From a virus: a DNA stretch of 22,410 nucleotides. A model generated the notes under the pieces. That model worked only from the letters and a program-made list of their open reading frames with translations, did not search any database and had not been told where the DNA came from. The stretch covers positions 1 through 22,410 of the IMG/VR virus record IMGVR_UViG_3300028920_000286; one strand, written 5' to 3'. Shown piece after piece: positions 1,557 through 18,332 of the stretch. Position 1 is the stretch's first letter. Each line of letters opens with the position of its first letter. The position numbers and the translations under genes were made by a program.

Positions 1557-1567
1557 TTCGCTCTCCT

Positions 1568-1636: not shown

Positions 1637-1663
1637 TTCCTCTCTTCCCCCGCTTTCGCTCTG

Positions 1664-1677
1664 TCCACACGTGTGGA
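1664..1677. promoter_or_regulatory. Module-boundary palindrome, copy 1 (gpI / fibre junction)
   Basis: This is the perfect 14-base palindrome TCCACACGTGTGGA. It abuts the TAA stop of the gpI-like gene (1678-1680) and opens the 121-nt gap before the fibre genes. The same 14-mer occurs at three other module junctions. It has no U-tract in the direction of transcription, so it is not a typical intrinsic terminator. A binding site for a dimeric regulator or an RNA processing hairpin is inferred. Confidence 0.7.
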
Positions 1678-2406
1678 TTAGATAATGATCCCCGACAGCT
1701 TCCCTGCGTCGAACCCGTCATCGTCGTCGAGATTCGGGACTGTCGGCCAGTCTGAGAACATGAACCCGCCCTCGGCGCTCACCGTGAACCCAACGCCCGC
1801 CGCTACGATCTCATCAAGGATCGCAGCTACCTCCACTCCGATGTTCGAGTCCGGCGAGTACAAGAACCGCCCGTAGTCGAACCCATAGTCCGAGTCGAGA
1901 TCCGGCACAGTCTCGGCTTCCGCGAACATGAAAATGTCCTCAGTCGTATCCTCGTCGAGGTACTGCTCGGGGATCGCAACCTCCATAAACGAGTCAATGA
2001 TGTCGATCCCCAGCGATGGGCTTGAGTTCAAGTACACTGAGATCTCTTCCGGAGGGATCTCCAGCACCCTCCCGAGAATGCCTTTGATGTCGTTCACGTG
2101 TCCCGTGCTCGTGTCGATCCAAACTTCGGTGTTCAATCTGTAACGCAGATCGTCGTCGGATTCCCCCTCCGTTCGGTACACCCCGTACCTCGCGGCCAAC
2201 ACATCGAGCTTGTGTCCCGTGGCCGAACTCAGCCCCCAGTCTCCTTTGATCTCAGCGAGCGCCTCACCGAGTTCGTGAATTGACTGGCTTAGGCAAGCCA
2301 ACAGCTTGTGCAGGTTCTTCCCCGCGTCGTCACGCCCGTAGTAATGCACGAGACGCCGGAACAATCTGCGCTTGATCTCAGCGAGAGAAGTCAGGTCTAC
2401 ACTCAT
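1678..2406 (-). CDS. Tail protein I-like baseplate wedge / fibre-attachment protein
   Basis: Complete ORF of 242 aa whose ATG overlaps the TGA of gpJ (ATGA). Residues 60-100 carry the pattern GHKLDVLAARYGVYRTEGES followed by DDDLRYRL, characteristic of phage tail proteins of the gpI/DUF2612-like group that join baseplate wedges to fibres. The order gp25-like, gpJ, gpI-like is the classic wedge gene order. Residues 158-181 and 214-237 form an internal repeat of the type (I/G)FMF...TVP(D/N)LD.D.GFD.G(R/K), acidic and rich in Asp and Phe, which may be a duplicated fibre-docking element. A perfect palindrome follows the stop immediately. Position and N-terminal motif support the family; the role of the repeats is unknown. 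Confidence 0.75.
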   Translation of the reverse strand: MSVDLTSLAEIKRRLFRRLVHYYGRDDAGKNLHKLLACLSQSIHELGEALAEIKGDWGLSSATGHKLDVLAARYGVYRTEGESDDDLRYRLNTEVWIDTSTGHVNDIKGILGRVLEIPPEEISVYLNSSPSLGIDIIDSFMEVAIPEQYLDEDTTEDIFMFAEAETVPDLDSDYGFDYGRFLYSPDSNIGVEVAAILDEIVAAGVGFTVSAEGGFMFSDWPTVPNLDDDDGFDAGKLSGIII

Positions 2407-4088
2407 GCGGCCTCCACCGTAATCAGGCTTGGATCGGTTACGGCCATCTCCGAAACGGCGATCGTGAGATTGCTCGTGCCTTCGGGATCAGCCGAGAAGC
2501 CCAGCGTGATCGAAGCGTCAAGAACACCAGCGACCCCCATGATCGCACTGACAATCTTCGAGGCGATCACATCGTCTGCCGGAGCAATCCCCGTTACGAG
2601 AGCACCGCCAGCATCCTCTCCACCGATGTACTGGACAATCGCATCTTTCACCTGATCGTCGCCGTCCACCGGAAAGTCCGTGTCTTTCGTGACAGTCGCA
2701 ATCACGTAGACCGGCTTCTCCGTCGGACGATTGAAGCGCATCGTGTGTTCCTGGCCGTAGTCATCCTCGACCAAAACCTCGACAGTTCCCTCAGTCCGAA
2801 TCCCCGCAGCAACCACGTTCATCAGGCACTCGGCGATGTCCTGCGTCTCTCCGCCGTAGACCGTCAACTCAACCGACCTCCGGCGCAGCCCTTCCACTTC
2901 CTCATCCTCTCGGTTGTGCCGATACCCCACTGAGCGCACTCCCGAAACTGCCCACACGTTCGCAACGATCTTCCGGGGGATCGCCGAAGCGCCCCGGCCC
3001 TTCGAGATCAGGAAGCGGTTGACAAGATCTGCATCAGACTCCTCGTTGCAGCCACTCGTAAACGCTCCCACCGTCTCCGACGTGATCCGCAACAACGCAT
3101 CATGTCCGGCAACCGCAGAGCCGTTGAGGTAGAACGCTCCCCCGGAATACGGATCGGTGCTGTTCGTCTCCCACTGGATCACCCCGCCGCTCGTCGCGTG
3201 GTTGACCAACGCCACGCGCAGAACGCTTCCACCCTCATGTGCGTCCAGCGCCAAGCCTTCCCACGTCACCCACTGCGAAGCTCCTGCCGCAAGCGTCACT
3301 TCCTTCGAGTGAGATCTGCACAGCCGCGCTGCCGTCCCGTGGTCGAAGACCTCCAAATGCAGGTTGTACGTGAGTTGCCCTGCGGTCCCGTTCTTGAGCT
3401 TGAGCGAGATCTTGCTGACCTTGTGCGGATGCTCAATGTCTGCAAGCCTCACGGTCTGGAAGTCCGTCACCCCATCGTCCTTCGCAACCGACTGTACCGC
3501 GTTTCCCACGTTTGCCAGCGAGAGCGTTGCCGCATGATCCCGATTCGTCACACCCGAGATCCCAGACACGGAATCGTCAAGCGTGTCGATGATCCCCGCA
3601 CGGCAGTTGAAGCTCGGGCCGTAGTCCATCGCCTCAACCAGCACATCGACCGACCCGCCGGCCAGAATCGTTCTCTCTTCCGTTGTCCGGTAGACCTTCT
3701 CTGTCGAACTTGCCGATACCTCAGTCGCTACCGGGATCGTTGCTCCGTTCGTTCCTGAGAACGTGACAACGTTCGTCGCTCTCTGTGCCGGATCGCGGAC
3801 GAGCCGCTGAAACTCAACCAGATCTTCGAGGCTTCGCCCGAACGCCCCGCCGACCTTGTTGGCGTTGTACACGGCTTCTGTCTCTTGATGCAGCAGATTC
3901 AGCTCGCCGAGCGCTGCCTCGGAGAAGATCGTGATCGGCGACCCTCCTTCAAGATCCAACTCGCTCCCAGGCATCGGATTGCCGTCTTCGTCAGACCATG
4001 TAGCCGCTCGAAGTCGCGCTCGCAGAGCTTCCCACAGCTCTTGGAACGTCGGACGCCGATACCCTGTGTTCAGCAACCCCCAACTCAT
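2403..4088 (-). CDS. Baseplate wedge protein J with inserted beta-rich domain
   Basis: Complete ORF of 561 aa, longer than many gpJ-like proteins. Residues 1-180 match the gpJ N-terminal half: a helical start with SELDLEGGSPITIFSEAALGE, then VVTFSGTNGATIPVATEVS, and the segment ending GISGVTNRDHA. The matching second half resumes near residue 346 with SGCNEESDADLVNRFL and continues through KIVANVWAVSGVRSV to the C-terminal domain. Between them, roughly residues 186-338, lies an extra beta-sandwich-like domain with no place in the basic family. Start and stop overlap the neighbouring genes by ATGA. The protein forms wedges with the gp25-like and gpI-like neighbours around the hub. The inserted domain may be exposed and bind sugars or another baseplate protein; that is inference. 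Confidence 0.85.
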   Translation of the reverse strand: MSWGLLNTGYRRPTFQELWEALRARLRAATWSDEDGNPMPGSELDLEGGSPITIFSEAALGELNLLHQETEAVYNANKVGGAFGRSLEDLVEFQRLVRDPAQRATNVVTFSGTNGATIPVATEVSASSTEKVYRTTEERTILAGGSVDVLVEAMDYGPSFNCRAGIIDTLDDSVSGISGVTNRDHAATLSLANVGNAVQSVAKDDGVTDFQTVRLADIEHPHKVSKISLKLKNGTAGQLTYNLHLEVFDHGTAARLCRSHSKEVTLAAGASQWVTWEGLALDAHEGGSVLRVALVNHATSGGVIQWETNSTDPYSGGAFYLNGSAVAGHDALLRITSETVGAFTSGCNEESDADLVNRFLISKGRGASAIPRKIVANVWAVSGVRSVGYRHNREDEEVEGLRRRSVELTVYGGETQDIAECLMNVVAAGIRTEGTVEVLVEDDYGQEHTMRFNRPTEKPVYVIATVTKDTDFPVDGDDQVKDAIVQYIGGEDAGGALVTGIAPADDVIASKIVSAIMGVAGVLDASITLGFSADPEGTSNLTIAVSEMAVTDPSLITVEAA

Positions 4089-4462
4089 GTGTTCACCGTC
4101 CTCGTCCCATCCAACATCTCGCCGCTCACAAGCACGGCCTTGAAATCGACCGTGATCGTCCTCTGCTTCCGGTCGAAATCAGCCAGCTCTAACCACGTCA
4201 CTGTCCTCACTCGCTTGTCCGCGTAGATCTCTTCGAGGATGTCACGCAGAATCAGCTCTTGCGGCGTCCCTTTCTCCCAGTAACGGAAGTACGGCACTCC
4301 GTCAGACAGCTTGCAGAACCGTTCGCCTTCCCACATCCGGAGACGCAGCCGAATCGCCTGCTCGACTTCTGCAAGCCCCGAGATCATCTTGACCCGCCCT
4401 GTTGAACGAACGATCTTGATGTCATCGGTCGCCGTGTCAATGTCAAAGCTCAGTCTCTCCAT
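4085..4462 (-). CDS. gp25-like baseplate wedge protein (gpW family)
   Basis: Complete ORF of 125 aa starting at ATG 4462, overlapping the TGA of the upstream gene. It has the compact size of the T4 gp25/P2 W family, which is lysozyme-like in fold but not enzymatic and connects sheath to wedge. Supporting motifs are GLAEVEQAIRLRLRMWEGER near residues 29-48, which fits the family's conserved helix preceding a Gly-Glu turn, and LILRDILEEIYADKRV near 70-85. The gene directly precedes gpJ, as is usual. The upstream neighbour is an unusual acidic protein rather than a typical spike, though the spike itself is only one gene further. Confidence 0.8.
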   Translation of the reverse strand: MERLSFDIDTATDDIKIVRSTGRVKMISGLAEVEQAIRLRLRMWEGERFCKLSDGVPYFRYWEKGTPQELILRDILEEIYADKRVRTVTWLELADFDRKQRTITVDFKAVLVSGEMLDGTRTVNT

Positions 4463-5214
4463 CAGAACCCCCGGTCGCTTTCAACCTGCTCAGATCCCGC
4501 GATCGAACTCTCGTTGGCAAACGCCCCGGCGATCAGTTCTGCCCCGGCCACTTCCAGCAAGCCCGCAATCGGAGCCAGTTGTCCACCTGTCGCAATAACC
4601 GCGAGATCGACCACGCCGCTCCAGATCGCACTCAATGTCTGCTCCAGATCTCCCTCGCAGATCCCCGCGAGGAAATCGAGCGTCGATTGGATCAAAGGCA
4701 GGTCGAGTCCTTCACGCAGAGCGATCTCGGCAACCGAATCGAGGATCACTTCGTTGGCGCTTTCCTTGATCTTCTGCACTCCGGCGTCGATCGCCGCTCC
4801 CAGAGCATCCGCTCCGATCTCGTCCAGCGTGATCTCGCCGTCTTCGGCCCAACCCTTGAGCGTCTCCCATCCCTCTTTCAGGAAGCTCGTAAAGCCCGCG
4901 ATGTTTTCTTCCCCGATCACGCCTTTCAGAACATCGAGATCCTCTTCCGAGAGATCGGACATGAACGCATCAGCCCACTGGATCATTCCAGTGACGAGCT
5001 GCTGCGTCAGCTCCTCCTCCAGTCCCGCGAAATACTCCGCTGTGAGTTGAGCCACAAGCTCTCCAGCAGGATCTCCCGCCGCATCAATCAGTCCTGCGAC
5101 GGCCTGTTCCTCGGGAGAGTAGTCTGCTCGGATTGCTTCGCTCGCCGACTGCGGACCCACCGTAGGCTGCTCTGTCGGTTCATCGTCAGCTCCATCACCC
5201 TCTGACGAGTCCAC
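4462..5214 (-). CDS. Acidic alpha-helical protein between spike and wedge (250 aa)
   Basis: Complete ORF of 250 aa from a GTG at 5214 that lies inside the boundary palindrome; no good SD precedes it, so the start is uncertain. Residues 1-30 are acidic and low complexity (SSEGDGADDEPTEQP). The rest is predicted alpha-helical, rich in Ala, Glu, Leu and Ile, with hydrophobic helices near 185-235 (SGVVDLAVIATGGQLAPIAG). No family is recognised. It is in the same frame as the spike gene, separated by a single TAA and 14 sense codons that also encode an acidic Gly/Asp/Glu linker. The two may therefore once have been, or may still sometimes be, one polypeptide. A baseplate or delivered-cargo role is possible but not shown. 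Confidence 0.6.
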   Translation of the reverse strand: MDSSEGDGADDEPTEQPTVGPQSASEAIRADYSPEEQAVAGLIDAAGDPAGELVAQLTAEYFAGLEEELTQQLVTGMIQWADAFMSDLSEEDLDVLKGVIGEENIAGFTSFLKEGWETLKGWAEDGEITLDEIGADALGAAIDAGVQKIKESANEVILDSVAEIALREGLDLPLIQSTLDFLAGICEGDLEQTLSAIWSGVVDLAVIATGGQLAPIAGLLEVAGAELIAGAFANESSIAGSEQVESDRGF

Positions 5215-5224
5215 ACGTGTGGAC
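5209..5224. promoter_or_regulatory. Module-boundary palindrome, copy 2 (spike / wedge junction)
   Basis: Perfect 16-base palindrome GTCCACACGTGTGGAC, containing the 14-mer shared by all four copies. It lies 32 bases after the spike stop and overlaps the GTG start of the acidic protein, so any protein bound there, or a hairpin in the message, could affect initiation of that gene. Confidence 0.7.
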
Positions 5225-5256
5225 CCCGTTTCATCTCGCGGCTCGTCATCGCCTGT

Positions 5257-6213
5257 TTAAAGGTCGCTTGTCGCCCCCTGTTCAAGAGAGCCTGCGGGTT
5301 GATCTTGCTCCCACGCCCCAGTCAAGAGATCGGCGATCGTGTCGCCCAAGCCATCCAACTCCAGACCCAGCGCGTCGGCCACCGATCCGATCGGGTCGTT
5401 CAAGAAGTTCGCGGCAAATACAACGTTCACACACAGGTACTCGATGTATCCCTTGATAAGCTCCCACAGCCTCGCCCAGTCGATGTCGATAACAGTCGGG
5501 CGTCCCGGTGGCACGAAATCGTTGATCGGATTCAGCCGCGCATACACGAGCTTCGACGTGTGCATCGCAACCCTGTTCGGGCTTGGCCCACTTGTCGGCG
5601 ACCCGCACGCCGGACAGATGTGCGTATGACTCTCGTAGTCTTCCGCCAGCGGTTGCAGTGCCACACGGTACTGAGCGTCAACCCCGAGCCTGATCCCCCG
5701 GCGATTCGGAGACTGAATCATCCATGTTCCGGCCAGCGCTCCCGAGCGATAGCAGACAAGCCGCGCTGCCGTCTCCGTGTGCTCCACAAGCCAATCGTCT
5801 GCATGTCTCTCCGGCAGGTAGAAATCGTCATCAGCTCGGATCGACCCAAGCACAATTACGTCCGTCAGGTTATGCGACCGCTTGTATACAGGATGATCCT
5901 GGCGGCGGTGCTTCTTCACTTGATCGAGTGCCTTATCGTGGACGACACAGACAACGAGATCGCCACGCTTCCCGATCTTGTACGGCCTGCGCATGATGTA
6001 CGGCCCCGCTCGGTCGATGTTCACCGGCACGTCGTACACTTTCTTCAAGCGCATCGGCTTGCCTTGCATCTCCTCGCGGAGTTTCATCAAAGGCCGGACC
6101 TTCGCTCGGCCTCTCTTTTGGTCGAGTTCAAAGATCTGCGCGAGGATCACACACCACGTTCCTTCGAGCTTCTGGTTGATCCTCTCGTCGATCAGGTCAG
6201 GGATACGTTTCAC
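5257..6213 (-). CDS. Baseplate spike protein with OB-fold N-terminus (gp138/Mu gp45-like)
   Basis: Complete ORF of 318 aa from GTG 6213, which overlaps the hub stop (GTGA) and has AGGAG eight bases upstream. Residues 20-125 look like the OB-fold domain of central spike proteins: basic beta strands (GRAKVRPLMKL), then GDLVVCVVHDKALD and DVIVLGSIRADDDFYLP. Residues 160-190 form short beta strands (GTWMIQSPNRRGIRLGVDAQ). A SHTH motif at 195-198, the HxH type that binds iron at spike tips, is followed by CPAC at 200-203. The C-terminal 70 residues are helical. Contractile tails use this protein to pierce the cell envelope. The TAA stop is followed in frame by the acidic protein. Confidence 0.75.
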   Translation of the reverse strand: MKRIPDLIDERINQKLEGTWCVILAQIFELDQKRGRAKVRPLMKLREEMQGKPMRLKKVYDVPVNIDRAGPYIMRRPYKIGKRGDLVVCVVHDKALDQVKKHRRQDHPVYKRSHNLTDVIVLGSIRADDDFYLPERHADDWLVEHTETAARLVCYRSGALAGTWMIQSPNRRGIRLGVDAQYRVALQPLAEDYESHTHICPACGSPTSGPSPNRVAMHTSKLVYARLNPINDFVPPGRPTVIDIDWARLWELIKGYIEYLCVNVVFAANFLNDPIGSVADALGLELDGLGDTIADLLTGAWEQDQPAGSLEQGATSDL

Positions 6214-7121
6214 TCTTCCAACTCCTGTAGCGTGAGCTTCGTCACGAAATCCTTGGTCGGCGTTCCTACGTGACTGCCTTCGACGATCTTGAGCGTCTTC
6301 ACGTCTCCACTTGTCGTAATCGCGTCTTGGAGATCCACGAGCTTGTCTGCACCCAGTCGGGGATCAAGCAGCACTTGGCACGAGTATTGCCTAAGCGGAG
6401 CATCGCTCTCGGGATCGTTCGGCTCCTCGATCGCCAACGGCTCAACGTGTCCAATCAGACCGTGCTCTGCGGAGATGAGAACCCCCGAGTGGACTGTCCC
6501 TACACCCTCTCGATGAAAGTGAATCAGCCCGCTCTCGACGTGGACCTCGTACGTCGCGTTCTTGATCTCCAGCAGGTCAGCAACGCACTTCTCCAACGCC
6601 GACTTGATCGTTTCGTTCGCCGCCGTGATGAATCCTGTCTCATACTCAAAGTTGTCGCGGCCCGGGATCTCGATCGTGCCTTGCCCAAAGCCGCTCGCCT
6701 TGCACAGGTCTTTCACGACCTTCCGGACCTTCGTCCCAGGCTCCCAGTCCTTGTTGACTCGCTTCGTCAGCCATTGGTCGTGACTGTCTCCGATCTCGAT
6801 CTTCACTGCCTTGTCCACGCCGTCCCACGTGACCTCGACCTTTTCGATCTCTCCGGAGATCAGCCCTTGCAGATTCGGCCCCTGCCAAATCGTCCCCTCG
6901 TATCCGGCCTCAACGATGATCGGATCGCCGCGCTTGAGTTCCGAGATCGTCGCCATCGTCAGGTTCGAGATCACCACTTCACCTAAGTTCGACGCGCTGT
7001 TGGTCCCAAACGGAATCGAGAACTCGATCCAGAATCCGCCCGTGCCTTTGTAGGTGTACGACTTCCCTATAGCCGGGAAGCTCACGCGCATGATCCTCCG
7101 GAACAGCACTTCTTTGCTCAC
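6210..7121 (-). CDS. Baseplate hub protein (gpD / T4 gp27-like)
   Basis: I chose GTG 7121 (MSKEVLFRRIMRVSF, 303 aa) because GACGAGG lies five bases upstream and the start overlaps the plug stop (GTGA). An alternative GTG at 7142 gives 310 aa but has no SD. The sequence follows the hub pattern: an N-terminal beta domain with FSIPFGTNSASNLGEVVISN and LKRGDPIIVEAGYEG, then WLTKRVNKDWEPGTKVRKVVKDLCKASG, a motif typical of the second tube-like domain. Hub proteins of this group form a trimer linking tail tube to spike. It sits between the plug and the spike, the standard order in small contractile phages. No lysozyme domain is visible. Confidence 0.8.
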   Translation of the reverse strand: MSKEVLFRRIMRVSFPAIGKSYTYKGTGGFWIEFSIPFGTNSASNLGEVVISNLTMATISELKRGDPIIVEAGYEGTIWQGPNLQGLISGEIEKVEVTWDGVDKAVKIEIGDSHDQWLTKRVNKDWEPGTKVRKVVKDLCKASGFGQGTIEIPGRDNFEYETGFITAANETIKSALEKCVADLLEIKNATYEVHVESGLIHFHREGVGTVHSGVLISAEHGLIGHVEPLAIEEPNDPESDAPLRQYSCQVLLDPRLGADKLVDLQDAITTSGDVKTLKIVEGSHVGTPTKDFVTKLTLQELEE

Positions 7122-7441
7122 TCGAACCTCGTCATCAGCCACGGGTACACGGATACCAGCAAGGTATCCCTCGTCACGTCGTTCTGGTCATCATCGAAAT
7201 TGGCATCGAACGGGATCACCCCGAGCCACCGCAAGTCGCGATGTGGAACTCCAAACAGCGCGTCTCGCCCATAGGCCAGCACTCGGCCATGGACGATTGC
7301 GTTCCCGCTCTCGTCGTCAACGTCCAGCGTGTAGCGCTCCATCTGTGGGTTGTATCGCAGGCGAAACTTGACTCGCTTCCCTGCGTGCCAAATCACTGCG
7401 ATCGCCGGTAGTTTCGTCTTGTCAAACCAAAGAGCTTCCAT
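7118..7441 (-). CDS. Baseplate plug protein (Pam3 gp18-like)
   Basis: Complete ORF of 107 aa; the ATG at 7441 is preceded by AGGTGA and the previous gene's stop. The product is a small beta-rich protein: FRLRYNPQMERYTLDVDDES, then GNAIVHGRVLAYGRDALFGV and a C-terminal LLVSVYPWLM. This layout, small size and location between the Dit-like and hub genes match the baseplate plug family described in the cyanophage Pam3 and similar short contractile phages, where the protein fills the space between hub and tube. The assignment comes from pattern and order, not from an alignment. It overlaps the alternative hub start by 25 bases. Confidence 0.65.
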   Translation of the reverse strand: MEALWFDKTKLPAIAVIWHAGKRVKFRLRYNPQMERYTLDVDDESGNAIVHGRVLAYGRDALFGVPHRDLRWLGVIPFDANFDDDQNDVTRDTLLVSVYPWLMTRFE

Positions 7442-7448
7442 CAATCAC

Positions 7449-8306
7449 CTACTCGGTTTCCTCCGCTCCACCGGACTCTGTTCCTTCCGTTTCATCCGAC
7501 GAGAACATATCCATCACCAAGTCGAGTGCTGTTTGCAGGAGCGAGGCATCCGTACTCTCCCCGCCGTTGCCGTTCTGCGGATCTCCCGAGCCGTTGTCCG
7601 AGCTGCCCTCGGAGCCTTCTCCGGTTACCGGATCTTCCCCTGGCTCGTATTCCGACTCCCCCGCCGTCGCCCAGTTGACTTGCTGGAGGGTGCAGGAGAA
7701 CGAGAACGCATTCGCCTCTCCCTGTTTATGAACCGGAGACAGATGCTTGATGACCATGTTCTTTCGCAGAGCCATGTTCGAGAGGAACGGCACGGCAAGC
7801 CCGTGCTCGAAGATGATCCGCAGAGCGTGGTAGTACACGTGATGCAAGAACTTGTCGCTCACCCACTGGCCTCTGACCTTCACCTTGTAGGGCTTGACGT
7901 GGACGTGATCCGAGAGCGGCTCGCCGTCTTCCAGCACCTTCTCTGTGATATCCGCTTGATGCTCCGGATTCTGTTCCTCAACGATGTTCACCGGCACAAC
8001 GCCAAGCAGACACATCTCGGGCAACCAGAGTTTCTTTGTCGTCCCCGTATCACCGCCCAGGGCGTGCGCCATATCGGTGATCGTATCGACAACAGGCTCG
8101 AACACATCCCTGACGCCTTGATCGACGTTCGCCTTGCGATCCCGAATCTTCTGTACGAATTGCTGCCATCCGCTTTGTGAAGAAGTCTCCTCGCTCCCCT
8201 CCAAGCTCGCAGGGACATCGACCAAATCGCTCCCGACGGTCGCTGCTTCCGCAGCCCCGTACGGGCTATCTTCGTAAGCTGCCAGCGCTTGTGCTTCTTC
8301 GCTCAT
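7449..8306 (-). CDS. Dit-like baseplate / tail tip protein with low-complexity C-terminus
   Basis: Complete ORF of 285 aa; its ATG overlaps the tape measure stop. The core (residues 93-215) has the pattern ITEKVLEDGEPLSDHVHVKP followed by YKVKVRG, typical of Dit-like proteins that ring the tail tube end in small contractile phages, and ends in FSFSCTLQQV. Residues 1-45 are acidic and probably disordered. Residues 216-285 are a strongly acidic, Gly/Ser/Asn/Glu-rich tail with one amphipathic helix (SLLQTALDLVMDMF). The position between tape measure and plug fits. The acidic termini recall the nearby 250-aa protein and may mediate contacts within the baseplate. Family placement is by motif recognition. 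Confidence 0.65.
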   Translation of the reverse strand: MSEEAQALAAYEDSPYGAAEAATVGSDLVDVPASLEGSEETSSQSGWQQFVQKIRDRKANVDQGVRDVFEPVVDTITDMAHALGGDTGTTKKLWLPEMCLLGVVPVNIVEEQNPEHQADITEKVLEDGEPLSDHVHVKPYKVKVRGQWVSDKFLHHVYYHALRIIFEHGLAVPFLSNMALRKNMVIKHLSPVHKQGEANAFSFSCTLQQVNWATAGESEYEPGEDPVTGEGSEGSSDNGSGDPQNGNGGESTDASLLQTALDLVMDMFSSDETEGTESGGAEETE

Positions 8307-10030: not shown

Positions 10031-10033
10031 GGG

Positions 10034-10192: not shown

Positions 10193-10196
10193 CGCT

Positions 10197-10481: not shown

Positions 10482-10505
10482 CCCTCATGCCTCCTTCGCA
10501 TTCTG

Positions 10506-10518
10506 TTGCGTTGCCCTG
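10506..10518 (-). repeat. Related short element CAGGGCAACGCAA in tube-chaperone gap
   Basis: The 37-nt gap between the tube stop and the chaperone start begins, on the minus strand, with CAGGGCAACGCAA directly after TAG. It matches 12 of 13 bases of the element at 1580-1592 before the fibre genes, and both are followed by an AGAAT sequence and an SD. Confidence 0.5.
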
Positions 10519-10932
10519 CTAGTTGAAGATCAAGCGATTCGTCTCGATCTCCACTTCCATGTTCTCCGCGTCCTTGTCCCCTCGCGAGAACGGCGCGGCC
10601 TTCTTCACCCAGGCTTGCTCTGCGGTGAATCCGTCGTCGCCGTCTTCGTTGTTGTCAATACAGACAACCGGGAACGTATCCCGCGACTTCTCCAACTCAC
10701 GGAACTTCTTTGCCCACGGAGACGTTTGGAGAATCACGATCTTGATCGAACCCGACTGGTTGTTGTTCGTGGTCCGCGCCGAGGCTCCCGTAGCCCCGAC
10801 CTTGATCGCATACTGATCCTCGTACCGCTCCGCACGGATAAAGTTCCCGTCGCCCCATCCGGTCACATAGTCGCCATTGACCATCGTGACAACTTTCGCT
10901 GGATCGTACAGTCGGACATCATTCTCGGGCAT
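10519..10932 (-). CDS. Tail tube protein (DUF3277-like)
   Basis: Complete ORF of 137 aa from ATG 10932 behind GAGGGGGTGA. The sequence follows the DUF3277 tube family: RLYDPAKVVTMVNGDYVTGW at the start, DGNFIRAERYEDQYAIKVGA, then SIKIVILQTSPWAKKFRELE and a C-terminal AWVKKAAPFSRGDKDAENME. The gene lies just after the sheath, in the usual order. The product polymerises into the inner tube through which DNA passes. The length is normal for the family and no key segment appears missing. Only 14 bases separate it from the sheath stop, so the two are probably translated from one message. Confidence 0.85.
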   Translation of the reverse strand: MPENDVRLYDPAKVVTMVNGDYVTGWGDGNFIRAERYEDQYAIKVGATGASARTTNNNQSGSIKIVILQTSPWAKKFRELEKSRDTFPVVCIDNNEDGDDGFTAEQAWVKKAAPFSRGDKDAENMEVEIETNRLIFN

Positions 10933-10946
10933 TACTGCTCACCCCC

Positions 10947-12032
10947 TCAGTCGTACTCTCCGGTGATCGGCTGGATGTACTCTTCCGTCAGGATTCCGTT
11001 CACCGTGACTTGGTTGATCGCTCCTGCGGCGGTCGCCCACCAAGGCAGATCGCTCAGGATTCGGTTCTTCACGTCGAGGGGATCGCAGTCTTCCCGGCGC
11101 GGCGGCTTGACTTGGTACAAGCCGTTGCCATCGAGATCCTGTGCGACAATGTAGTACGGTCGCCCCACGCAGATCTCCAACGCCTGCCGGACAAGACCCG
11201 CAAGGAACAGGATTCCCGTGTCGTCATACGGGATCTTGTCGTGCTGACTCAGCGCGTCCCAGATCTTCTCCTTCATGGTAGCACCCATGAAGTCGATCGC
11301 CCGAACGAGATCGGCCCAGAAACCGCTCGTCGCCATTCCGCCCGTCGTCGTCAGATGCCCCACAGGGTTCTCCCAATAGGTCATCACGTTTCCGGCTTCC
11401 AGGGTGCTCCGCTCCGTGGTCGTAAGCTCCGGATCTGCAATCGAGTCGAGCATCAAATGTCGCCAGTTGACGCTCCCCGGATACCGTGCGCCAATTCGTC
11501 CGGCCAGGGCCGCATCGAAATGCTCATCAAGGTCGCTGTGGTAACACGCCACGACTCGGTTCGCAGCATAGCTCGCCGCCGCTGTGACGATATTTGCAAC
11601 CGTTTCATCCGTCTTCCGGTGAGCCAGGAACATCCGCTCCTGGGCGGCAACCCAATCGGCCAGCTCGTCGCGATCTCCGGCAACCTGTTCTCGCTCGGCT
11701 TGAACGAGGAAGTACCAGCCCGTGTTTCCTGCAGCCAGCAAAGCGTTGAGCGCAGCCGACAGTTCCTCGGGCGTCGGCTCCTCGCCGTCTCGCGTCACAT
11801 CGAGCACGGCCACATCGCGAGGCCGAGGCGTCTGTGAAAACAGAGCTTGAGCCGCGTCGTAAGCCGCTGTCGTGTTGTCGAAGTCAGCACTCACTTCCGT
11901 CAGATCGTTGTAGAGCAACCATTGATCTTTCTTCTCTCCGTCCGCTGTGGACGTGAGAATGAGCGCCCGCCCAAACTCCCTGCGCTTCACCGGAGCAAGC
12001 GTATTGCTGATGTTTACGATAACATCACTCAT
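10947..12032 (-). CDS. Contractile tail sheath protein (DUF3383-like)
   Basis: Complete ORF of 361 aa at ATG 12032 with GGGAGGAG upstream. The N-terminus is VIVNISNTLAPVKRREFGRA, followed by YDAAQALFSQTPRPRDVAVL and WYFLVQAEREQVAGDRDELA, the pattern of DUF3383 sheath proteins found in short contractile tails. The C-terminal half contains MATSGFWADLVRAIDFMGAT, the segment where sheath subunits make inter-strand contacts in related structures. Its presence together with a DUF3277-like tube shows a myovirus-type tail rather than a siphovirus. The gene begins 15 bases after a boundary palindrome, the first gene of the tail module. Confidence 0.85.
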   Translation of the reverse strand: MSDVIVNISNTLAPVKRREFGRALILTSTADGEKKDQWLLYNDLTEVSADFDNTTAAYDAAQALFSQTPRPRDVAVLDVTRDGEEPTPEELSAALNALLAAGNTGWYFLVQAEREQVAGDRDELADWVAAQERMFLAHRKTDETVANIVTAAASYAANRVVACYHSDLDEHFDAALAGRIGARYPGSVNWRHLMLDSIADPELTTTERSTLEAGNVMTYWENPVGHLTTTGGMATSGFWADLVRAIDFMGATMKEKIWDALSQHDKIPYDDTGILFLAGLVRQALEICVGRPYYIVAQDLDGNGLYQVKPPRREDCDPLDVKNRILSDLPWWATAAGAINQVTVNGILTEEYIQPITGEYD

Positions 12033-12046
12033 GTTCGCTCCTCCCT

Positions 12047-12062
12047 ATCCACACGTGTGGAT
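12047..12062. promoter_or_regulatory. Module-boundary palindrome, copy 3 (head-neck / tail junction)
   Basis: Perfect 16-base palindrome ATCCACACGTGTGGAT, carrying the shared 14-mer. It abuts the TGA of the tail terminator gene (12063-12065) and lies just upstream of the sheath SD, so it falls exactly between head-completion and tail genes. The arrangement repeats that of copy 1: stop codon, palindrome, next module. Confidence 0.7.
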
Positions 12063-12710
12063 TCACTCGGGGTCAATGAAATCGTCGGAGACAACGCTGC
12101 GAGCGGGCTGCTCGGTGTATTCGTCCTCTCCGTTCTGTCTCACGTGGCCGGTCGTTACAACCTTCTCCACGCTCTCAATCTGCTCGGCGATCGTCTCGCC
12201 GTATTTCAGTTCCAAGTCAAACTGCCTGTGAGCAAGAGCATCGTTCTCCGTGTGGAACCTCGGATCGAACACCCGCACCGTTCCCGCATCAAGCACTTGC
12301 GCATCCACCTGAATCAGTCTCAGGTGGCTTTTCCCCCGCAACCATCCCCTGACTGCCGCCGCGATTGACTCGATCGAATCGTCCGCGTCGTAACTCGCGT
12401 CCGGATCGGCCCAGATATGGCAGCTCAGATCCAACCTTGGCTCATGTCTGTGAAGTCGAAGAACGTCCGTTGAATAAGGCGGATCAGCGCCCTGTGCTGC
12501 GGCTACGTTTTCGTAGTCCATCGGGCGCAGCCGACCCGTTTGCTTCGGATCGTCTCGCCCTGACGAGATCACTGTGTACGTTGCGAAAGGCGGTGTCCGT
12601 CTCAGTCCTTGCCGACGTTTGTCCTCCGCGAAGAAATCCGTCAGGCACGTGTCGGCCATCAGCCCCTCGCGGATCGCATTGATGACAACCAGCTCTCTCG
12701 ACGCGCTCAT
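12063..12710 (-). CDS. Probable tail terminator / neck protein (215 aa)
   Basis: Complete ORF of 215 aa whose ATG overlaps the preceding stop (ATGA). The N-terminus is helical (RELVVINAIREGLMADTCLT). The middle has LDLSCHIWADPDASYDADDS and IESIAAAVRGWLRG, and the end has HRQFDLELKYGE, a beta strand typical of the last strand in tail terminator/neck subunits. The position immediately upstream of the sheath is where the terminator is normally encoded; LIC_12616-type neck proteins show a comparable layout. The C-terminal 35 residues are acidic and variable. The role is inferred from order and this final-strand pattern; a named match could not be verified. Confidence 0.6.
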   Translation of the reverse strand: MSASRELVVINAIREGLMADTCLTDFFAEDKRRQGLRRTPPFATYTVISSGRDDPKQTGRLRPMDYENVAAAQGADPPYSTDVLRLHRHEPRLDLSCHIWADPDASYDADDSIESIAAAVRGWLRGKSHLRLIQVDAQVLDAGTVRVFDPRFHTENDALAHRQFDLELKYGETIAEQIESVEKVVTTGHVRQNGEDEYTEQPARSVVSDDFIDPE

Positions 12711-13102
12711 CTCGCGTTCCTCGCCATGTACAGATGCACGATTCCCATCCGGAGGTTGTGCTCCCGCTTCTCTACGGTGAACGAATCAGTCTCGCCCGTA
12801 ACGGGGTTCACTGATTCGACTTTCGCCCCGATCTTCACGTCGTTTGCGGTCCATCCGTGAGCTTCGAGTTCGCTTGCCAGGATACGCAGGTGGAAAAGCT
12901 CCATGTCGAACGCCCCGGCCCCGATCGTTCCCCGATCGAGTGCGCGGTTGTGGACTGGAAGGATCTTGCCCTTAAGCGTGATGCTCCCACCCTCGACGCT
13001 CTCCCTCTTGTATCGACCCGCAAACTCCTCATCCTCCATGTCGAACGTCGTCAGCGTTACGTCCTGCTCGCCTCGACGGATCAACGTGCGCAGATGGCTC
13101 AC
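12707..13102 (-). CDS. Head-tail joining region protein, family not recognised (131 aa)
   Basis: Complete ORF of 131 aa from GTG 13102, overlapping the upstream stop by GTGA and the downstream start by ATGA. The sequence is mixed beta with motifs EFAGRYKRESVEGGSITLKG and MELFHLRILASELEAHGWTA, and a C-terminal FTVEKREHNLRMGIVHLYMA. In contractile phages the genes between major capsid and sheath encode adaptor, stopper and tail-completion proteins, and this is the third of four here. A stopper-like role fits the beta-rich content but is only inferred. Nothing suggests an enzyme. Confidence 0.5.
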   Translation of the reverse strand: MSHLRTLIRRGEQDVTLTTFDMEDEEFAGRYKRESVEGGSITLKGKILPVHNRALDRGTIGAGAFDMELFHLRILASELEAHGWTANDVKIGAKVESVNPVTGETDSFTVEKREHNLRMGIVHLYMARNAR

Positions 13103-13542
13103 TTCTTCCGCCCCTCGACTTTGTGCGTGACCGAGCCTCTTGTCTCGCCCGTATCAATCCACGTCTTGTCGGTCCCCTTCTTCTTCACCGTGGACGCAGC
13201 CAGCGGCGGAGGGATCTGCTCGTTCATCTTGTTGACGATTCGCTCGTGCATCATCATCCCGAGACTCTCGTACACGTCCCGGGCTGTTGCTTTCCCCGTG
13301 AGCACGTCGCCGTACCCCTGGGCAGCATGAGTCGCGAACAGTTCTTTATGCTCGGCCATCGCTGCACGAAACACAGAGCGTTCCGGACAGTTCCCAAGGC
13401 CAAACTCGTTCGCGGTCGCTCTCGCAGCAATGTCTCGTCCGGCAGATGAGAACACACCCGCTCGAACTTGCAGGCGATTGAACGCAGCAAGCTCCTTCTG
13501 AATCTCAGGGATTCGATTCCGATCATGGACAGTCACAGACAT
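13099..13542 (-). CDS. Neck / tail completion protein (HK97 gp10-like)
   Basis: I chose ATG 13542 (147 aa), which overlaps the adaptor stop (TGATG) and has GGGAG upstream; a longer frame upstream would overlap the adaptor. The middle holds NEFGLGNCPERSVFRAAMAE, the common pattern of a conserved Glu-Phe-Gly and a Pro-Glu-Arg-Ser motif in HK97 gp10-like tail completion proteins. A C-terminal IPPPLAASTVKKKG and WIDTGETRGSVTHKV fit the family's ending, where a Thr-Gly turn precedes the final strand. These proteins sit at the top of the tail and help attach it to the head. The motif match gives better support than for the neighbouring genes. Confidence 0.7.
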   Translation of the reverse strand: MSVTVHDRNRIPEIQKELAAFNRLQVRAGVFSSAGRDIAARATANEFGLGNCPERSVFRAAMAEHKELFATHAAQGYGDVLTGKATARDVYESLGMMMHERIVNKMNEQIPPPLAASTVKKKGTDKTWIDTGETRGSVTHKVEGRKK

Positions 13543-13895
13543 CAAACGTCTCCCGAGGTATAAGCCGACTTCCCACCAAGCGCCCGGGACCAAGCACGGT
13601 CAAACTCTCTTCGGAACTGCCCCTCCGAACCCTGATACTGCCCGGAGAGGCCGTCTCCCGATTCAGTCTGTAGCCGCCGCTCAGTCACCGCAGCAAGCTC
13701 GCACGCTCGCCACTTGACAAGAGCCGCACGCCGACGGTCGGAGATCGTGAACGAGTCATCCCGAAGCGTTTGCTCCCGGAGCTTGTCGGCCACGTCTTCC
13801 ACTGCATCCGCGATCCGCTCGGTCAAGAACGCATCCGTGACCAACTCGAACTCGCCCGCAGTTCTGACCTCTGCAACCGTCGGCTCAATGCTCAT
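13542..13895 (-). CDS. Head-tail adaptor-like protein (117 aa)
   Basis: Complete ORF of 117 aa from ATG 13895 with TAGGAG upstream, eight bases after the capsid stop. It is mostly helical, with LTERIADAVEDVADKLREQT and RRAALVKWRACELAAVTERR, as expected of gp6/gp15-like adaptors that bind the portal and form the first neck ring. Being the first gene after the major capsid protein also fits. The fold cannot be proven from sequence alone. An alternative is a small head-completion protein of another type. Confidence 0.55.
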   Translation of the reverse strand: MSIEPTVAEVRTAGEFELVTDAFLTERIADAVEDVADKLREQTLRDDSFTISDRRRAALVKWRACELAAVTERRLQTESGDGLSGQYQGSEGQFRREFDRAWSRALGGKSAYTSGDV

Positions 13896-13903
13896 ACCAA
13901 CTC

Positions 13904-15010
13904 CTACGACTCAGTGTTGACGATCAGCACGCCAACCTTGTCCATCCCGTCCATCAACGGGAAGGACTTTGCGCTGACTTTCGTCCACAGCGTCTTGACA
14001 TCCTGCCCCTCGATCCACGCTTCCGCGTAGAGTCCCGGCGCAGGTTGGCCCTGGAGCTGTTCGGAGTTCATCAGCGCCTCGACCGTCGGAGCAGAGATCG
14101 TGCTTCCAACTCGGACACTCGCATCCGGCAGCAACACGATCCGATACTCGGGAAGCAACCGCTCCTCGGTGATCGCGCCGGTTTCCGCATCCTTCGAGCG
14201 CACCTTCACGTCGTACTCAACGAACGTCGGAAGCTGATACCGACTGAGCAGATTGTTCAGTTCGGTGACGGCCATGAGGCGAGCACCGTAGTCGCTTCCC
14301 CACAGGTATGTCTCTCCCACTTCCGTGTTGGCGAGCATGTAGTCCATGACCGTGCTCGAACAGATCGCCCGTGTCAGTCGGACGCCGTAGGTCCGCTGAT
14401 ACCAGCGGCAGTACGTCCGCAGATCGGACAGCCAATCGCAAGCTCCGACGCCTGTCACGTTGTCCCACGTGATCTGGCCGTAGTCGGAGTCCGTCCCCAC
14501 CGTCACGATGTTCGCAGCGGTCGCTTGGAAATCGACCGACTGAATGATCCCGTCCTCGGAGTACGTGAACGACCCCTTGGCAAGAGCTTGCCACCGGAAC
14601 CACTCAACACGGGCGAGCACGGCGTCCGTGAGCGTTGCCACGTCGTCGTACATCTCCTCGATGAGCTGCTTCCACAGATCGGACTGGTACTGCGACTGCT
14701 TGAGCCGCAGGTACGTCTTCGGGTCGATCGGCAGCTTTCGCCGCACACCCGGGATCGTCCCCTCGGCCACTTTCAGCGTTCCCCACCGCTCGCCAACGCC
14801 GGTTTCCGCTCCCTCGGCGTGAATGTTCGCCATGACCGGGATACCGGCTTTCTTCTTGACGATCTCCCAGTCAGGCCCGTTGACCGTTTCCAGTGGAAGG
14901 ATCGACGGCCCAATGTACTGAGACGTTTGGTGGATGTCGTTGGTCACGTCACGGACGAACTTCGTCAGATTCGCAATCCTCAGTTCTCTTCGCTCAAGAA
15001 TCTCCTGCAT
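13904..15010 (-). CDS. Major capsid protein (lambda E-like)
   Basis: Complete ORF of 368 aa at ATG 15010 behind GAGGGGGTGA. The length and pattern match the lambda gpE-type HK97-fold capsid family: an N-terminal arm with LTKFVRDVTNDIHQTSQYIG, a basic IPGVRRKLPIDPKTYLRLKQ segment, a central LSDLRTYCRWYQRTYGVRLT and a C-terminal PEYRIVLLPDASVRVGSTIS, ending in ...GVLIVNTES. The upstream neighbours are a decoration-like protein and a scaffold, and the downstream one is an adaptor, the same order as in lambda-type heads. I saw no N-terminal extension typical of a fused scaffold. No protease is apparent among the neighbours. Confidence 0.9.
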   Translation of the reverse strand: MQEILERRELRIANLTKFVRDVTNDIHQTSQYIGPSILPLETVNGPDWEIVKKKAGIPVMANIHAEGAETGVGERWGTLKVAEGTIPGVRRKLPIDPKTYLRLKQSQYQSDLWKQLIEEMYDDVATLTDAVLARVEWFRWQALAKGSFTYSEDGIIQSVDFQATAANIVTVGTDSDYGQITWDNVTGVGACDWLSDLRTYCRWYQRTYGVRLTRAICSSTVMDYMLANTEVGETYLWGSDYGARLMAVTELNNLLSRYQLPTFVEYDVKVRSKDAETGAITEERLLPEYRIVLLPDASVRVGSTISAPTVEALMNSEQLQGQPAPGLYAEAWIEGQDVKTLWTKVSAKSFPLMDGMDKVGVLIVNTES

Positions 15011-15032
15011 GTTGTTTTCACCCCCTCACTGG

Positions 15033-16778
15033 CTATACGAACGTAAAGCCCGTGAGCTGGGCCTTGATCGTCGCGTCCACAGTCGTCTCCAGCAGCGCCT
15101 CACGGACACGACCCTCATCCAACACACCCACAGGAGCGTCTCCCGCAGTCAATTCCACGGCTTCCGCCGTGATGTAGGCTGCATCGACGTTCAGATCGGT
15201 CCCGTCAGCGAGTGCAGCCTCGGCAACGGCTTCCATCGTTCCGGACCCATCCGAGTCCGTCCCGTTGGCTACCGACACCGGCACACCGTCCTGACCGCCC
15301 GTGAGAGCTGTCTCTGCGACAGCCGCACACGTGCCAGAACCATCTCCCGCAGCGCCAACCTCTGCGTAGAACAGAGCCTTTGCTTCCGGGTCTGCGTTGA
15401 TTGCAGCAACGACTTCGGTTCCGATCGACGTGATCGTTCCGGAGCCTTCCGCAGATCCCCCAGTCAGCGCGGCCTCTGCCACAGCTTCGGCGGCTTCCGC
15501 ACCCGTGCCGTCATACGTCGCCGTCACGAGCGCCTTGCATTCCACGTCGGCGTTGATCGCCGCTGCCACTTCCGCGACGGTCGATACGATCGTGCCGGTC
15601 CCCGCATCAGACCCGTTCGCGAGACTTGCTTCGGACTGCGCATCCACGACTTCGAGGCCCGTGCCGTCGTACGAAGCGGTGACAAGTGCTTTCGCTTCGT
15701 AGTCCGCATTGATCGCATCCGCGACATCCTTCGCCGTGGACGTGATTGCACCCGCTTCGCCCGTCGCCAGATTCACGGTGATCTTGCCGTCGTCGAAGTC
15801 GATCGACAGCGGCTTGTCATTCCCGCTGGGGTCGAGCATCTCGATGGACAGATCGTTCCCGCCAGCGCCCGCCACGTTCGCCGCAACGACAAGCTCCTTG
15901 TTCGTGACGCCAGAGTAGAACGTCTTGCTCGCAGGAGCAGCCGCGTCCGTGCTGTCCGTTTCCAGGACAACGGAGATCACGCCGTCGTCATAGCTGACAG
16001 CGAGCGACTGATCCGGGCCTTGGTTGAGAAGCTCAATCGACAGATCGTTTCCGCCGACTCCGGCTTCATCCGCCGTGATGACGAGTTCCTTGTTCTCCAC
16101 GCCATCCCAGAGCGTCTTGCTCGCAGCCACAGCCGCGCTCGTCGCGTCGGTCGCAAGCGTCACTTGCAGCCGGTAGCCATCCACGACATCGACGGCCAGC
16201 GACTCGCTCGGTCCCGCGTTGATGAGCTGGACAGTGGCCTTGTTCCCAAGGTAGCCAGCTTCGCGCCGAGTGACCTTGATCTGCGCGTCACCCGAACCCA
16301 GATTGCCGGACGCCTTGACAGACGCAACGGCAATCGCCGCGATGACCTCCGAGGCAAGCGCCGTCGGATCGGTTCCGTCGTTCTTGAGATGAACGGTGAT
16401 CTTGCCCAGATGGGCGTCGTACTCGACCTGTGTTTCGGAGAGCGAGTCCTGATCGTTGACGATCTCAAGCAGGATGCTGTTTCCAGCGGTTCCCGCTACA
16501 CGAGCCGTCCAGACGAGCAGATTGTCACTCGCTGCTTCCCCCGTGCTCTTGGTCGCAGCAATCGCCGCTACGACCTCCTCGTACAGATCGTCAGCCGACC
16601 GCTTCCCTACCACGGTCCCGGACTTGACGATCTTGTTTCCATTTCCATCAGCGCTGAAAGACGCTGCCCTCAACGTCACACCATGCAGCTTGCGCCGAAA
16701 CTGGCTCGAAGCGAGCCAAGGCAGGCTGGTGTTGTCGTAGAGCGTAGTCTCTGCGCCGACGAACGTTCCGCCGCTCAT
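15033..16778 (-). CDS. Large repeat-containing head decoration protein (581 aa)
   Basis: Complete ORF of 581 aa with AGGAGG before ATG 16778. Residues 1-60 (TLYDNTSLPWLASSQFRRK, then HGVTLRAASF) and residues 530-581 (AYITAEAVELTAGDAPVGVL, ending TGFTFV) look like the two halves of a small capsid decoration protein. Between them sit at least four repeats of about 60-70 residues with motif AG.GGNDLSIE....DDG.I.V.L, near 88, 166, 231 and 295, then three shorter repeats of type (A)LVTA.YDGTG...V....AL..G with AAINAD near 358-495. Such repeats are known from phage virion proteins. The position directly upstream of the capsid gene is that of lambda D. The expansion is unusual; a surface-exposed head fibre is an alternative reading. 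Confidence 0.65.
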   Translation of the reverse strand: MSGGTFVGAETTLYDNTSLPWLASSQFRRKLHGVTLRAASFSADGNGNKIVKSGTVVGKRSADDLYEEVVAAIAATKSTGEAASDNLLVWTARVAGTAGNSILLEIVNDQDSLSETQVEYDAHLGKITVHLKNDGTDPTALASEVIAAIAVASVKASGNLGSGDAQIKVTRREAGYLGNKATVQLINAGPSESLAVDVVDGYRLQVTLATDATSAAVAASKTLWDGVENKELVITADEAGVGGNDLSIELLNQGPDQSLAVSYDDGVISVVLETDSTDAAAPASKTFYSGVTNKELVVAANVAGAGGNDLSIEMLDPSGNDKPLSIDFDDGKITVNLATGEAGAITSTAKDVADAINADYEAKALVTASYDGTGLEVVDAQSEASLANGSDAGTGTIVSTVAEVAAAINADVECKALVTATYDGTGAEAAEAVAEAALTGGSAEGSGTITSIGTEVVAAINADPEAKALFYAEVGAAGDGSGTCAAVAETALTGGQDGVPVSVANGTDSDGSGTMEAVAEAALADGTDLNVDAAYITAEAVELTAGDAPVGVLDEGRVREALLETTVDATIKAQLTGFTFV

Positions 16779-16802
16779 GTATTCCTCCTCTACGCGAGGG
16801 AC

Positions 16803-17480
16803 TTACTGTTGCGCCCAGGGATCAATCGCACCTTGCTTCGCAGATTCGCGAGTTTCTCGCCGCCTCTGCGCCATCCCCGCACCGAAGTCCGTCGGGCCTT
16901 CCCCTTCTGGGTTCCCTGGCGGATTCCCTGGCTGCGGAGGCGTAATCCCAACCCCAGGCTGTCCCTCTGTCTCATTCCCTTCGCCTTCCCCGTTCCCAGC
17001 AGCTTCGACGCTGAGTACGCCTTGGGCTTTCAGGTTTCCCAGGAAGACCAGCTTTTCTGGATCGGTCAGCCCCTTCGGACAGATCGACTCAAACTTTGCC
17101 TTTCCTTCGTCCCCGAGAGACTCGACCTCGACGGTGAGCATCTCGGTGAACCGGCCTTGCAGTTCGGTGGTTGACGCCTTTACTGTCTCCAGCTCTGCCT
17201 TCAGTTCGGCGTTCTGTGTTTTCAACGATTCAAGCAGCTCGTCTTTCGTCTTGCCCGCAGAGTCGATCTCGCTTTTCAGCCTGTCGATCTCGCGGTCCCG
17301 TTCGCCCAGCTTCTCCTGATTCTTCTCGACGTGAGCTTGCAGAGCTTTCTGGATCTCACGGTCAATTCGCGATTGAAGCTGCGCCTCGGTGAACTGCAAC
17401 ACTTTCCCCGCCTCTCCGCCGCTGCCAGTGCTTCCGCCCTGGCTTCCGTCTTGCGAACCGTGGTTCGTGTCATCCGGCAT
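16803..17480 (-). CDS. Capsid scaffold protein (225 aa)
   Basis: I chose ATG 17480, which has GGAGG upstream; an in-frame extension upstream would overlap the preceding gene. The 225-aa product begins with a disordered Gly/Ser/Asp segment, then a long coiled coil at about residues 31-115 (FTEAQLQSRIDREIQKALQA, ELLESLKTQNAELKAELETV), the pattern of DUF4355-like scaffolds. A compact part at 118-160 includes ICPKGLTDPEKLVFLGNL. The C-terminus is Gly/Pro/Glu-rich and ends in a basic RRRETRESAK cluster, typical of a capsid-binding tail. The gene is placed just before the decoration and capsid genes. No protease domain is fused to it, so scaffold removal may not need processing, or the protease lies elsewhere. 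Confidence 0.75.
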   Translation of the reverse strand: MPDDTNHGSQDGSQGGSTGSGGEAGKVLQFTEAQLQSRIDREIQKALQAHVEKNQEKLGERDREIDRLKSEIDSAGKTKDELLESLKTQNAELKAELETVKASTTELQGRFTEMLTVEVESLGDEGKAKFESICPKGLTDPEKLVFLGNLKAQGVLSVEAAGNGEGEGNETEGQPGVGITPPQPGNPPGNPEGEGPTDFGAGMAQRRRETRESAKQGAIDPWAQQ

Positions 17481-17499
17481 GTGCCTACCTCCTGCGTTC

Positions 17500-17895
17500 T
17501 TAGATGTCGTTCTGCATAAAGCCGAGAGCACGCAATCTCTTGACGATCTCCGTCCTCACGCTGACGCGATTCGATTGGCGGTACAGCTCTTTGAGGGTTG
17601 TAATGTCGTTGATCGCTCGAACGACATTGATCGCGTCCCGCGCCGGTACGATGTCCGAGATCTCGCGCCCGTCCTCGACTTCGCGAACGAGTCTCTTGAT
17701 GCCTTCTTCCTCGTCCATCGAGATCGTCCCGCTTTCAAGGAACGCCTCCAGACGAGAGTTGCCTTGCGCGACCCGTTCCAGCAGGTCGCCGTCAACGGTG
17801 TTCAGCCCAGGCTCCAAACGCACGCCTTCACCTGTGATCGGGTTATGAAACGTGCGGGCGTAGTCTGCGCTGTTCCTCACACTGACATTCGCCAT
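17500..17895 (-). CDS. Unknown protein preceding the scaffold (131 aa)
   Basis: Complete ORF of 131 aa from ATG 17895, with AAGGAG just upstream. The frame stays open upstream to 18183, but that stretch has no SD and codes an unlikely hydrophobic, Cys-rich sequence, so I reject the longer version. The protein has a short beta-like start (MANVSVRNSADYARTF, then GEGVRLEPGLNTVDGDLLER) and a helical second half with VVRAINDITTLKELYRQSNR and KRLRALG. The first part resembles small Mu-type head-region proteins, but I cannot name the family. It is the first gene of the capsid block, downstream of a boundary palindrome, and probably works with the scaffold or portal. Confidence 0.55.
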   Translation of the reverse strand: MANVSVRNSADYARTFHNPITGEGVRLEPGLNTVDGDLLERVAQGNSRLEAFLESGTISMDEEEGIKRLVREVEDGREISDIVPARDAINVVRAINDITTLKELYRQSNRVSVRTEIVKRLRALGFMQNDI

Positions 17896-17934
17896 CGCCA
17901 CTCCTTCTCCTTGCCTGTGTTCGTTCCGCCCACA

Positions 17935-17950
17935 GTCCACACGTGTGGAC
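17935..17950. promoter_or_regulatory. Module-boundary palindrome, copy 4 (before capsid block)
   Basis: Perfect 16-base palindrome GTCCACACGTGTGGAC, identical to copy 2. It lies 40 bases upstream of the start of the 131-aa gene and about 400 bases after the HNH gene. No good -35/-10 pair is obvious near it. Together with the other copies it marks the beginning of the capsid block. Confidence 0.7.
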
Positions 17951-17955
17951 GGCAA

Positions 17956-17975: not shown

Positions 17976-18032
17976 CGCCGAGTCCTCCAACGAACACGAA
18001 AGGAGGCACACCGTAGGCAACACTCACAGAGT

Positions 18033-18326: not shown

Positions 18327-18332
18327 TGGCTC

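Follow-up and report, generated by a model that had tools for sequence, protein, structure and literature searches.

Dispersed protein-binding sites are found on several kinds of mobile DNA. The stoperators of L5-type phages are asymmetric and mostly intergenic, and conserved inverted repeats are present in phage phiC31. On the plasmid RK2, the KorB protein silences over kilobases from dispersed operators (PMC11790492), and in Caulobacter ParB residue R173 contacts guanine 1 of parS, a position at which Noc has a glutamine and its site an adenine 1 (PMC7383237). Here, we describe a set of repeated palindromes in the IMG/VR virus record IMGVR_UViG_3300028920_000286, a 22.4-kb fragment of a Mu-like myophage in which every gene is located on the minus strand. 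The window that we analyzed is the whole record (22,410 nucleotides). The palindromes share the architecture TCCAC-N4-GTGGA, and dyads of the same build recur throughout the genomes of an unrelated phage group. On balance, we favor the hypothesis that they are dispersed sites of the parS or Noc-binding site (NBS) type, bound by a phage-encoded dimeric protein of the ParB/Noc type that belongs to the family of gp66 in the Stenotrophomonas phage DLP5.

The 14-mer TCCACACGTGTGGA is present in four exact copies in the window, at 1664-1677, 5210-5223, 12048-12061 and 17936-17949, and the last three extend into 16-bp palindromes with the outer pairs G-C, A-T and G-C, respectively, in agreement with an earlier sequence-only reading of this DNA. 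These copies are the sole palindromes of at least 12 bp in the window. None is expected by chance: no exact copy was found in shuffled sequence, and in 300 dinucleotide shuffles of the window every 12-bp palindrome was present at most twice. The sequence-only reading took the palindrome itself as the unit, but the real unit is the dyad. When the pattern was relaxed, the arms TCCAC and GTGGA were invariant and the four central bases free, and a fifth dyad emerged at 18304-18317 that had been missed (TCCACgtgcGTGGA, TCCAC-GTGC-GTGGA, with a non-palindromic centre). All five sites in the window appeared at the N4 spacing when half-site distances from 0 to 15 were compared, with a single match, attributable to chance, across the 15 other spacings. 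Likewise, five further sites with the variant centres acga, acaa, tcgt, gcgt and atgt in the related sequences J249, G003, G004 and G005 all have the N4 spacing; records of relatives fetched with the 14-mer have this spacing by construction, and it is therefore the variant-centre sites that provide the evidence on spacing. A hairpin tolerates changes in loop length, whereas a dimeric DNA-binding protein requires a fixed distance between its half-sites. A constant 4-bp gap between the half-sites, an unconstrained centre and half-site specificities that diverge between phages with the same build together support the interpretation of the dyad as the recognition site of a dimeric protein.

All five dyads in the window are intergenic. 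The first directly abuts the stop codon (0 nt) of the gpI-like gene at 1678-2406. The second (GTCCACACGTGTGGAC, 5209-5224) is located 33 nt past the stop codon of the gene at 5257-6213 and covers the first possible GTG of the open reading frame at 4462-5214, so that this start is uncertain. The third (ATCCACACGTGTGGAT, 12047-12062) lies 1 nt past the stop codon of the gene at 12063-12710 and 15 nt ahead of the ATG of the tail sheath gene (10947-12032), with AGGGAGGAG directly downstream of the site. The fourth (GTCCACACGTGTGGAC, 17935-17950) is found at the junction of the HNH gene with its neighbour, 54 nt ahead of the downstream gene. The fifth is placed in the upper stem of a 14-pair terminator-like hairpin (18326-18295) past the stop codon of the HNH gene.

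The claim that the sites occur only at module junctions holds for the 22-kb fragment but not for its relatives. We identified relatives of the window phage by the tail module (G005), the portal and MuF genes (G004) and the sheath, which is 67% identical in J249, a 17.7-kb contig in a metagenome-assembled genome (MAG) labelled Bipolaricaulota (MAG G047). Scans of IMG/VR with the sheath and portal recovered G004 alone. The dyad in J249 (L127 8935-8950) occupies the same HNH/next-gene junction as the fourth site in the window, and a dyad ahead of the tape-measure gene is common to J249 and G005, while the remaining dyads in the relatives are at non-matching places. Both copies in G004, one copy in G003 and two variant-centre sites in J249 are located within open frames. 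Copies inside genes, which the sequence-only reading had itself named first among the findings that would count against it, are thus present in relatives, and they remove the junction-only interpretation but leave a function for the sites intact; the sites in the window may sit in junctions because a 14-bp site fits there most easily among tightly packed genes. In MAG G047, five dyads are present in 23 kb of phage contigs (J249 and J274) versus three in the other ~2.7 Mb. Because the latter number is about what is expected by chance, the dyad is not a host-chromosome motif in this MAG, the host assignment of which rests on binning.

A scan of IMG/VR for the 14-mer gave 48 stretches, many of which were single copies in unrelated contigs, some within genes; these likely represent chance or other functions. 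A scan of 84,980 genomes for the 16-mer gave 44 loci, mostly unrelated; where bacteria have several copies, some of these sets have the appearance of terminators or elements of another kind. Two to three copies of AAAGTCCACACGTGTGGACTTT in the MAGs Deltaproteobacteria ZodW_Metabat.284 and Lentisphaerae bin-3387 (L129-L131, L132-L133) resemble bidirectional terminators or another repeat. We also observed a separate phage group (L006, L021, L031, L043) with a single 20-22 bp palindrome, GGGGTCCACACGTGTGGACCCC, and similar flanks.

The IMG/VR scan identified a 30.9-kb record with five copies of the 14-mer (G001), which represents a siphophage unrelated to the window phage, as seen from its portal, tape measure and DNA polymerase families. 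Relatives by the major capsid protein include the Stenotrophomonas phages DLP5 and DLP3, Rhodobacter phage RcZahn, Rhizobium phage RHph_TM16 and Vibrio phage SIO-2. A scan for repeated dyads revealed the same 5-N4-5 build in these phages, with different half-sites. The dyad TGCAA-N4-TTGCA was found 31 times in DLP5 (0.13 expected), 47 times in G068, 31 times in G069, 25 times in G083 and 22 times in G072, versus 0.06-0.32 expected, as well as 16 times in RHph_TM16 and nine times in RcZahn. Other half-sites are TCCAA in G075, G060 and G061, TGCAC in G062, TGAAC in G064 and TCCAC in G001. The identical TGCAA dyad is thus shared by phages that infect four host genera (Stenotrophomonas, Rhizobium, Rhodobacter and Vibrio), and this speaks for a binder encoded by the phages themselves. 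DLP3 can lysogenise its host, and DLP5 was recovered in the form of a phagemid (PMC7326821). Beside several of the dyads in the G001 siphophage (L053/L054 in G001, L056 in G006) lies a conserved GGCTAATTAGTTCTAG-like element that is perhaps a promoter or regulatory element.

The complete genomes show how the sites are arranged. The 31 sites in DLP5 are ~3 kb apart, and 23 are intragenic and eight intergenic in a genome that is 95% coding; across the DLP5-like phages, the dyads recur each 2-5 kb over whole genomes. In five genomes (DLP5, G068, G069, G072 and G083) the sites follow each other more regularly than random ones would (coefficient of variation of the spacing 0.47-0.58 versus 0.93-0.97, P <= 0.005). 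All of the 30 sites that could be aligned between DLP5 and DLP3 (83% identity) are conserved, with variation in the centre alone, versus about eight expected from a control in which chance conservation was 0.264 per site. Two further pairs of phages (75% and 78% identity) have kept 10 of 11 sites versus 1.2 expected. The positions of the sites are under selection in the DLP5-like phages, including inside genes, and we are highly confident that the dyads constitute a dispersed array of recognition sites across these phage genomes. The proposal of an operator for a dimeric late regulator retains its dimeric protein but not its junction-bound late operator, since the sites in complete relatives are mostly intragenic and evenly spaced genome-wide. 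A conserved linker for the exchange of modules, also suggested in the sequence-only reading, was rejected because the half-sites differ between relatives, the flanks differ between the copies and intragenic sites keep their positions.

The strongest candidate for a protein that binds the array is gp66 (DLP5 47761-48564), which belongs to a family for which there is no Pfam model. Orthologues were identified in 12 of the 12 near-complete DLP5-like genomes examined, and an iterated profile search extended the family to two relatives of the window phage, G003 and G004 (E 6e-29 and 2e-33), with the G004 gene at L060 9262-10119 on the minus strand. Among ~45 DLP5 gene families (those with orthologues in relatives) that were profiled against the relatives of the window phage, only two matched, gp66 and a replication-initiation protein. 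The gp66 gene is usually located behind its own sigma70-like promoter, and six of 13 genomes have a dyad in the 100 bp that precede its start codon, versus 0.31 expected (P=2e-7). These correlations, in presence, recognition-helix changes and putative autoregulatory sites, make it fairly probable that the gp66 family is the binder. Neither the W-type gp66 alignment nor the G075 protein recovered additional relatives when used as the query of a scan. Two other proteins, the MerR-like gp59 and the ParB_N protein gp114, were considered as universal binders and dropped, being missing from some of the dyad carriers.

DLP5 gp66 and the G004 protein were modelled with AlphaFold (predicted local distance difference test scores of 83.8 for one model and 68.6, with a better helical core, for the other). 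The best match in the PDB to the DLP5 model in VIA-align was the Spo0J-parS structure (Z 9.7), and the ten best matches to the G004 model were all ParB/Noc proteins (Z 9.4-7.5, next 5.5). The best-matching fold predicted for the DNA-binding domain of gp66 is hence the helix-turn-helix fold of ParB, Noc and KorB. The predicted recognition helix of DLP5 gp66 begins at E98-R99. Arg99 is found in genomes with a G at position 2 of the half-site (dozens of loci), and Arg-Ser at the helix start in three genomes with a C at this position, G075 (TCCAA), G003 and G004 (TCCAC). The residue-by-residue equivalence with the helix of ParB is putative.

Several observations weigh against a ParB/Noc-type reader of the gp66 family. 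The window record, being a fragment, contains no gp66-like gene, and the window phage's own binder is thus unseen; several genomes with gp66, such as G078, have few or no clear dyads. The structural Z scores are below 13 and could reflect a common helical arrangement. With Foldseek alone, nothing in the PDB matched the gp66 models significantly, and the link to ParB/Noc emerged only in a second comparison with VIA-align. Furthermore, no ParB_N clamp domain was identified with Pfam in the gp66 members of DLP5, G003, G004 and G075, Pfam reports no HTH_ParB domain, and a comparison of gp66 with three ParB proteins from MAGs in hhalign gave no match. The correlation with Arg and Ser is based on just two independent lineages with a C at position 2. 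Finally, the positions drift over larger distances, and the fourth site alone is kept among the window sites that are comparable with J249 or G005.

One scenario that would account for these patterns is that a gp66-family dimer binds each dyad, with helix residues in the region that corresponds to R173/S174 in ParB reading position 2 of the half-site. With an evenly spaced array, such a protein might cover the phage genome, organise it and silence it, much as KorB does through dispersed operators on RK2 or Noc through NBS on the chromosome, and the dyad at the promoter of gp66 could serve as an autoregulatory site for feedback on its own gene. We put forward the organising or silencing role tentatively and by analogy; the main role may be silencing, segregation or condensation. 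The closest working parallel is KorB, with dispersed palindromic operators (OB) on an extrachromosomal replicon, sites near promoters and a ParB-type helix-turn-helix, as predicted here for gp66; a KorB-operator structure was also among the structural matches of the DLP5 gp66 model (Z 7.0). Unlike KorB, the gp66 family is without the ParB_N CTP clamp domain and no KorA partner was identified, and the phage sites exceed those of KorB in number, lie at even distances and are for the most part intragenic. The predicted DNA-binding fold (Z 9.7-7.5) and the two-fold palindromes are likewise shared with Noc/NBS and ParB/parS, as is a putative shift in specificity at the start of the recognition helix (R173 in ParB, Q in Noc; PMC7383237). 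However, the gp66 family has no CTPase domain and its sites have a free 4-bp centre, the phage sites are spread evenly genome-wide whereas parS forms an origin-proximal cluster, and no ParA was found among the annotated DLP5 products. A more speculative possibility is that the dyads belong to a widespread genome-organising system of phages, in which a clampless ParB/Noc-fold protein reads evenly spaced 5-N4-5 palindromes embedded in the genes of the phage itself, with specificity switched by changes in the recognition helix like those from ParB to Noc, so that self-DNA is marked for coating, silencing or condensing as a unit.

We also considered the possibility that the dyads are stoperators or operators of an immunity repressor distinct from gp66, which would occupy them and thereby shut off transcription in the lysogen, like gp71 of L5 or the repressor of phiC31. 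This explanation, whose chief differences from a gp66-family reader are the identity of the protein and the stress on silencing, seems unlikely to us, although it has several merits. The sites are dispersed and phage-specific with divergent half-sites, as in heteroimmunity, they are in excess between genes (eight of 31 in DLP5, where 5% of the DNA is non-coding, and all sites in the window), dyads adjoin the gp66 promoter, and the lysogens of DLP3 and the phagemid form of DLP5 (PMC7326821) also count in its favor. The window fragment does not contain the repressor gene of its phage. The many dispersed phage sites with group-specific sequences, often at gene junctions, are indeed reminiscent of the L5 stoperators and the phiC31 repeats. 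Yet most of the DLP5 sites are intragenic, evenly spaced and conserved in position, and conservation of the annotated repressor-like genes does not extend to every carrier. Unlike L5 stoperators, the phage dyads are symmetric and perfect or near-perfect, and unlike both systems the candidate protein has a predicted ParB/Noc fold. As to position, all five dyads in the window are intergenic, and 23 of 31 in DLP5 are intragenic.

We regard it as improbable that the dyads form a parS centromere array for partition or packaging that is bound by the ParB_N protein adjoining the large terminase (gp114 in DLP5). Such palindromes are bound by ParB-family proteins, and a ParB_N protein is encoded near the large terminase gene in DLP5, RHph_TM16, RcZahn, G083, G068, G076 and G062. 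However, no homologue was found in G075 (13 sites), SIO-2 or the relatives of the window phage, and the protein is highly similar among genomes with different half-sites. A site for a host factor, such as a LexA box, a pair of DnaA boxes or the site of another host regulator, is very improbable. The sequence TCCACA resembles the core of the DnaA box and LexA boxes may take the 5-N4-5 form, but an identical TGCAA dyad occurs in phages of four host genera, near relatives have different half-sites, and there is no chromosomal enrichment in MAG G047, to which the phage contigs were assigned by binning. The DnaA-box pair in particular, with the half-site TCCACA, was rejected since the relatives have TGCAA and TCCAA half-sites. 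Least plausible of all is a small mRNA hairpin for processing, stability or termination, as proposed in part by the sequence-only reading: the palindrome can fold, the fifth site is placed within a terminator-like hairpin and runs of A and T flank some of the bacterial 16-mer copies, but the arms are exact with a fixed 4-bp spacing and a free centre, the sites are evenly spaced and conserved under selection inside genes, and no terminator-like T-run was found at the first four sites in the window.

No description of these dyads was found in the papers on DLP3 and RcZahn or in the open-licence literature searched. If the gp66 hypothesis is correct, two unrelated phage groups, including isolates with plasmid-like lysogens, share strongly selected, genome-wide arrays of binding sites, and the array is read by a ParB/Noc-type protein for which there is no Pfam model. 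This would amount to an undescribed way for phages to organise or silence their own DNA. The different half-sites would provide a natural series for studies of the evolution of ParB-type DNA specificity, and the system an entry point to the silencing or organisation of plasmid prophages. The dyads would also serve as a sequence mark that links phage fragments to each other and to their regulator.

The genes in the window, all on the minus strand, include a portal-like gene (21050-22405), a MuF-like gene (19577-20686), the HNH gene (18352-18840), a capsid gene (13904-15010), the sheath and gpI-like genes mentioned above, a fibre gene (897-1556), baseplate genes and further fibre genes. A sigma70-like promoter, TTGACA-17-TAGAAT (1596-1568, minus strand, 11/12), is located between the first dyad and the fibre gene; it is the only such match found within positions 1-20000 and suggests that the fibre module may be transcribed separately. 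In G004, a DNA cytosine methyltransferase-like protein adjoins a ParB-nuclease-like protein (L060 7468-8019 and 6528-7478) near the terminase genes, as read from the sequence, and the latter protein has no Pfam match. The gene upstream of the capsid gene in the window (15033-16778) encodes a protein of 581 amino acids with internal repeats, including a 130-nt repeat at 15830 and 16022 with 72% similarity between the copies, and a shorter version of 347 amino acids is present in J249.

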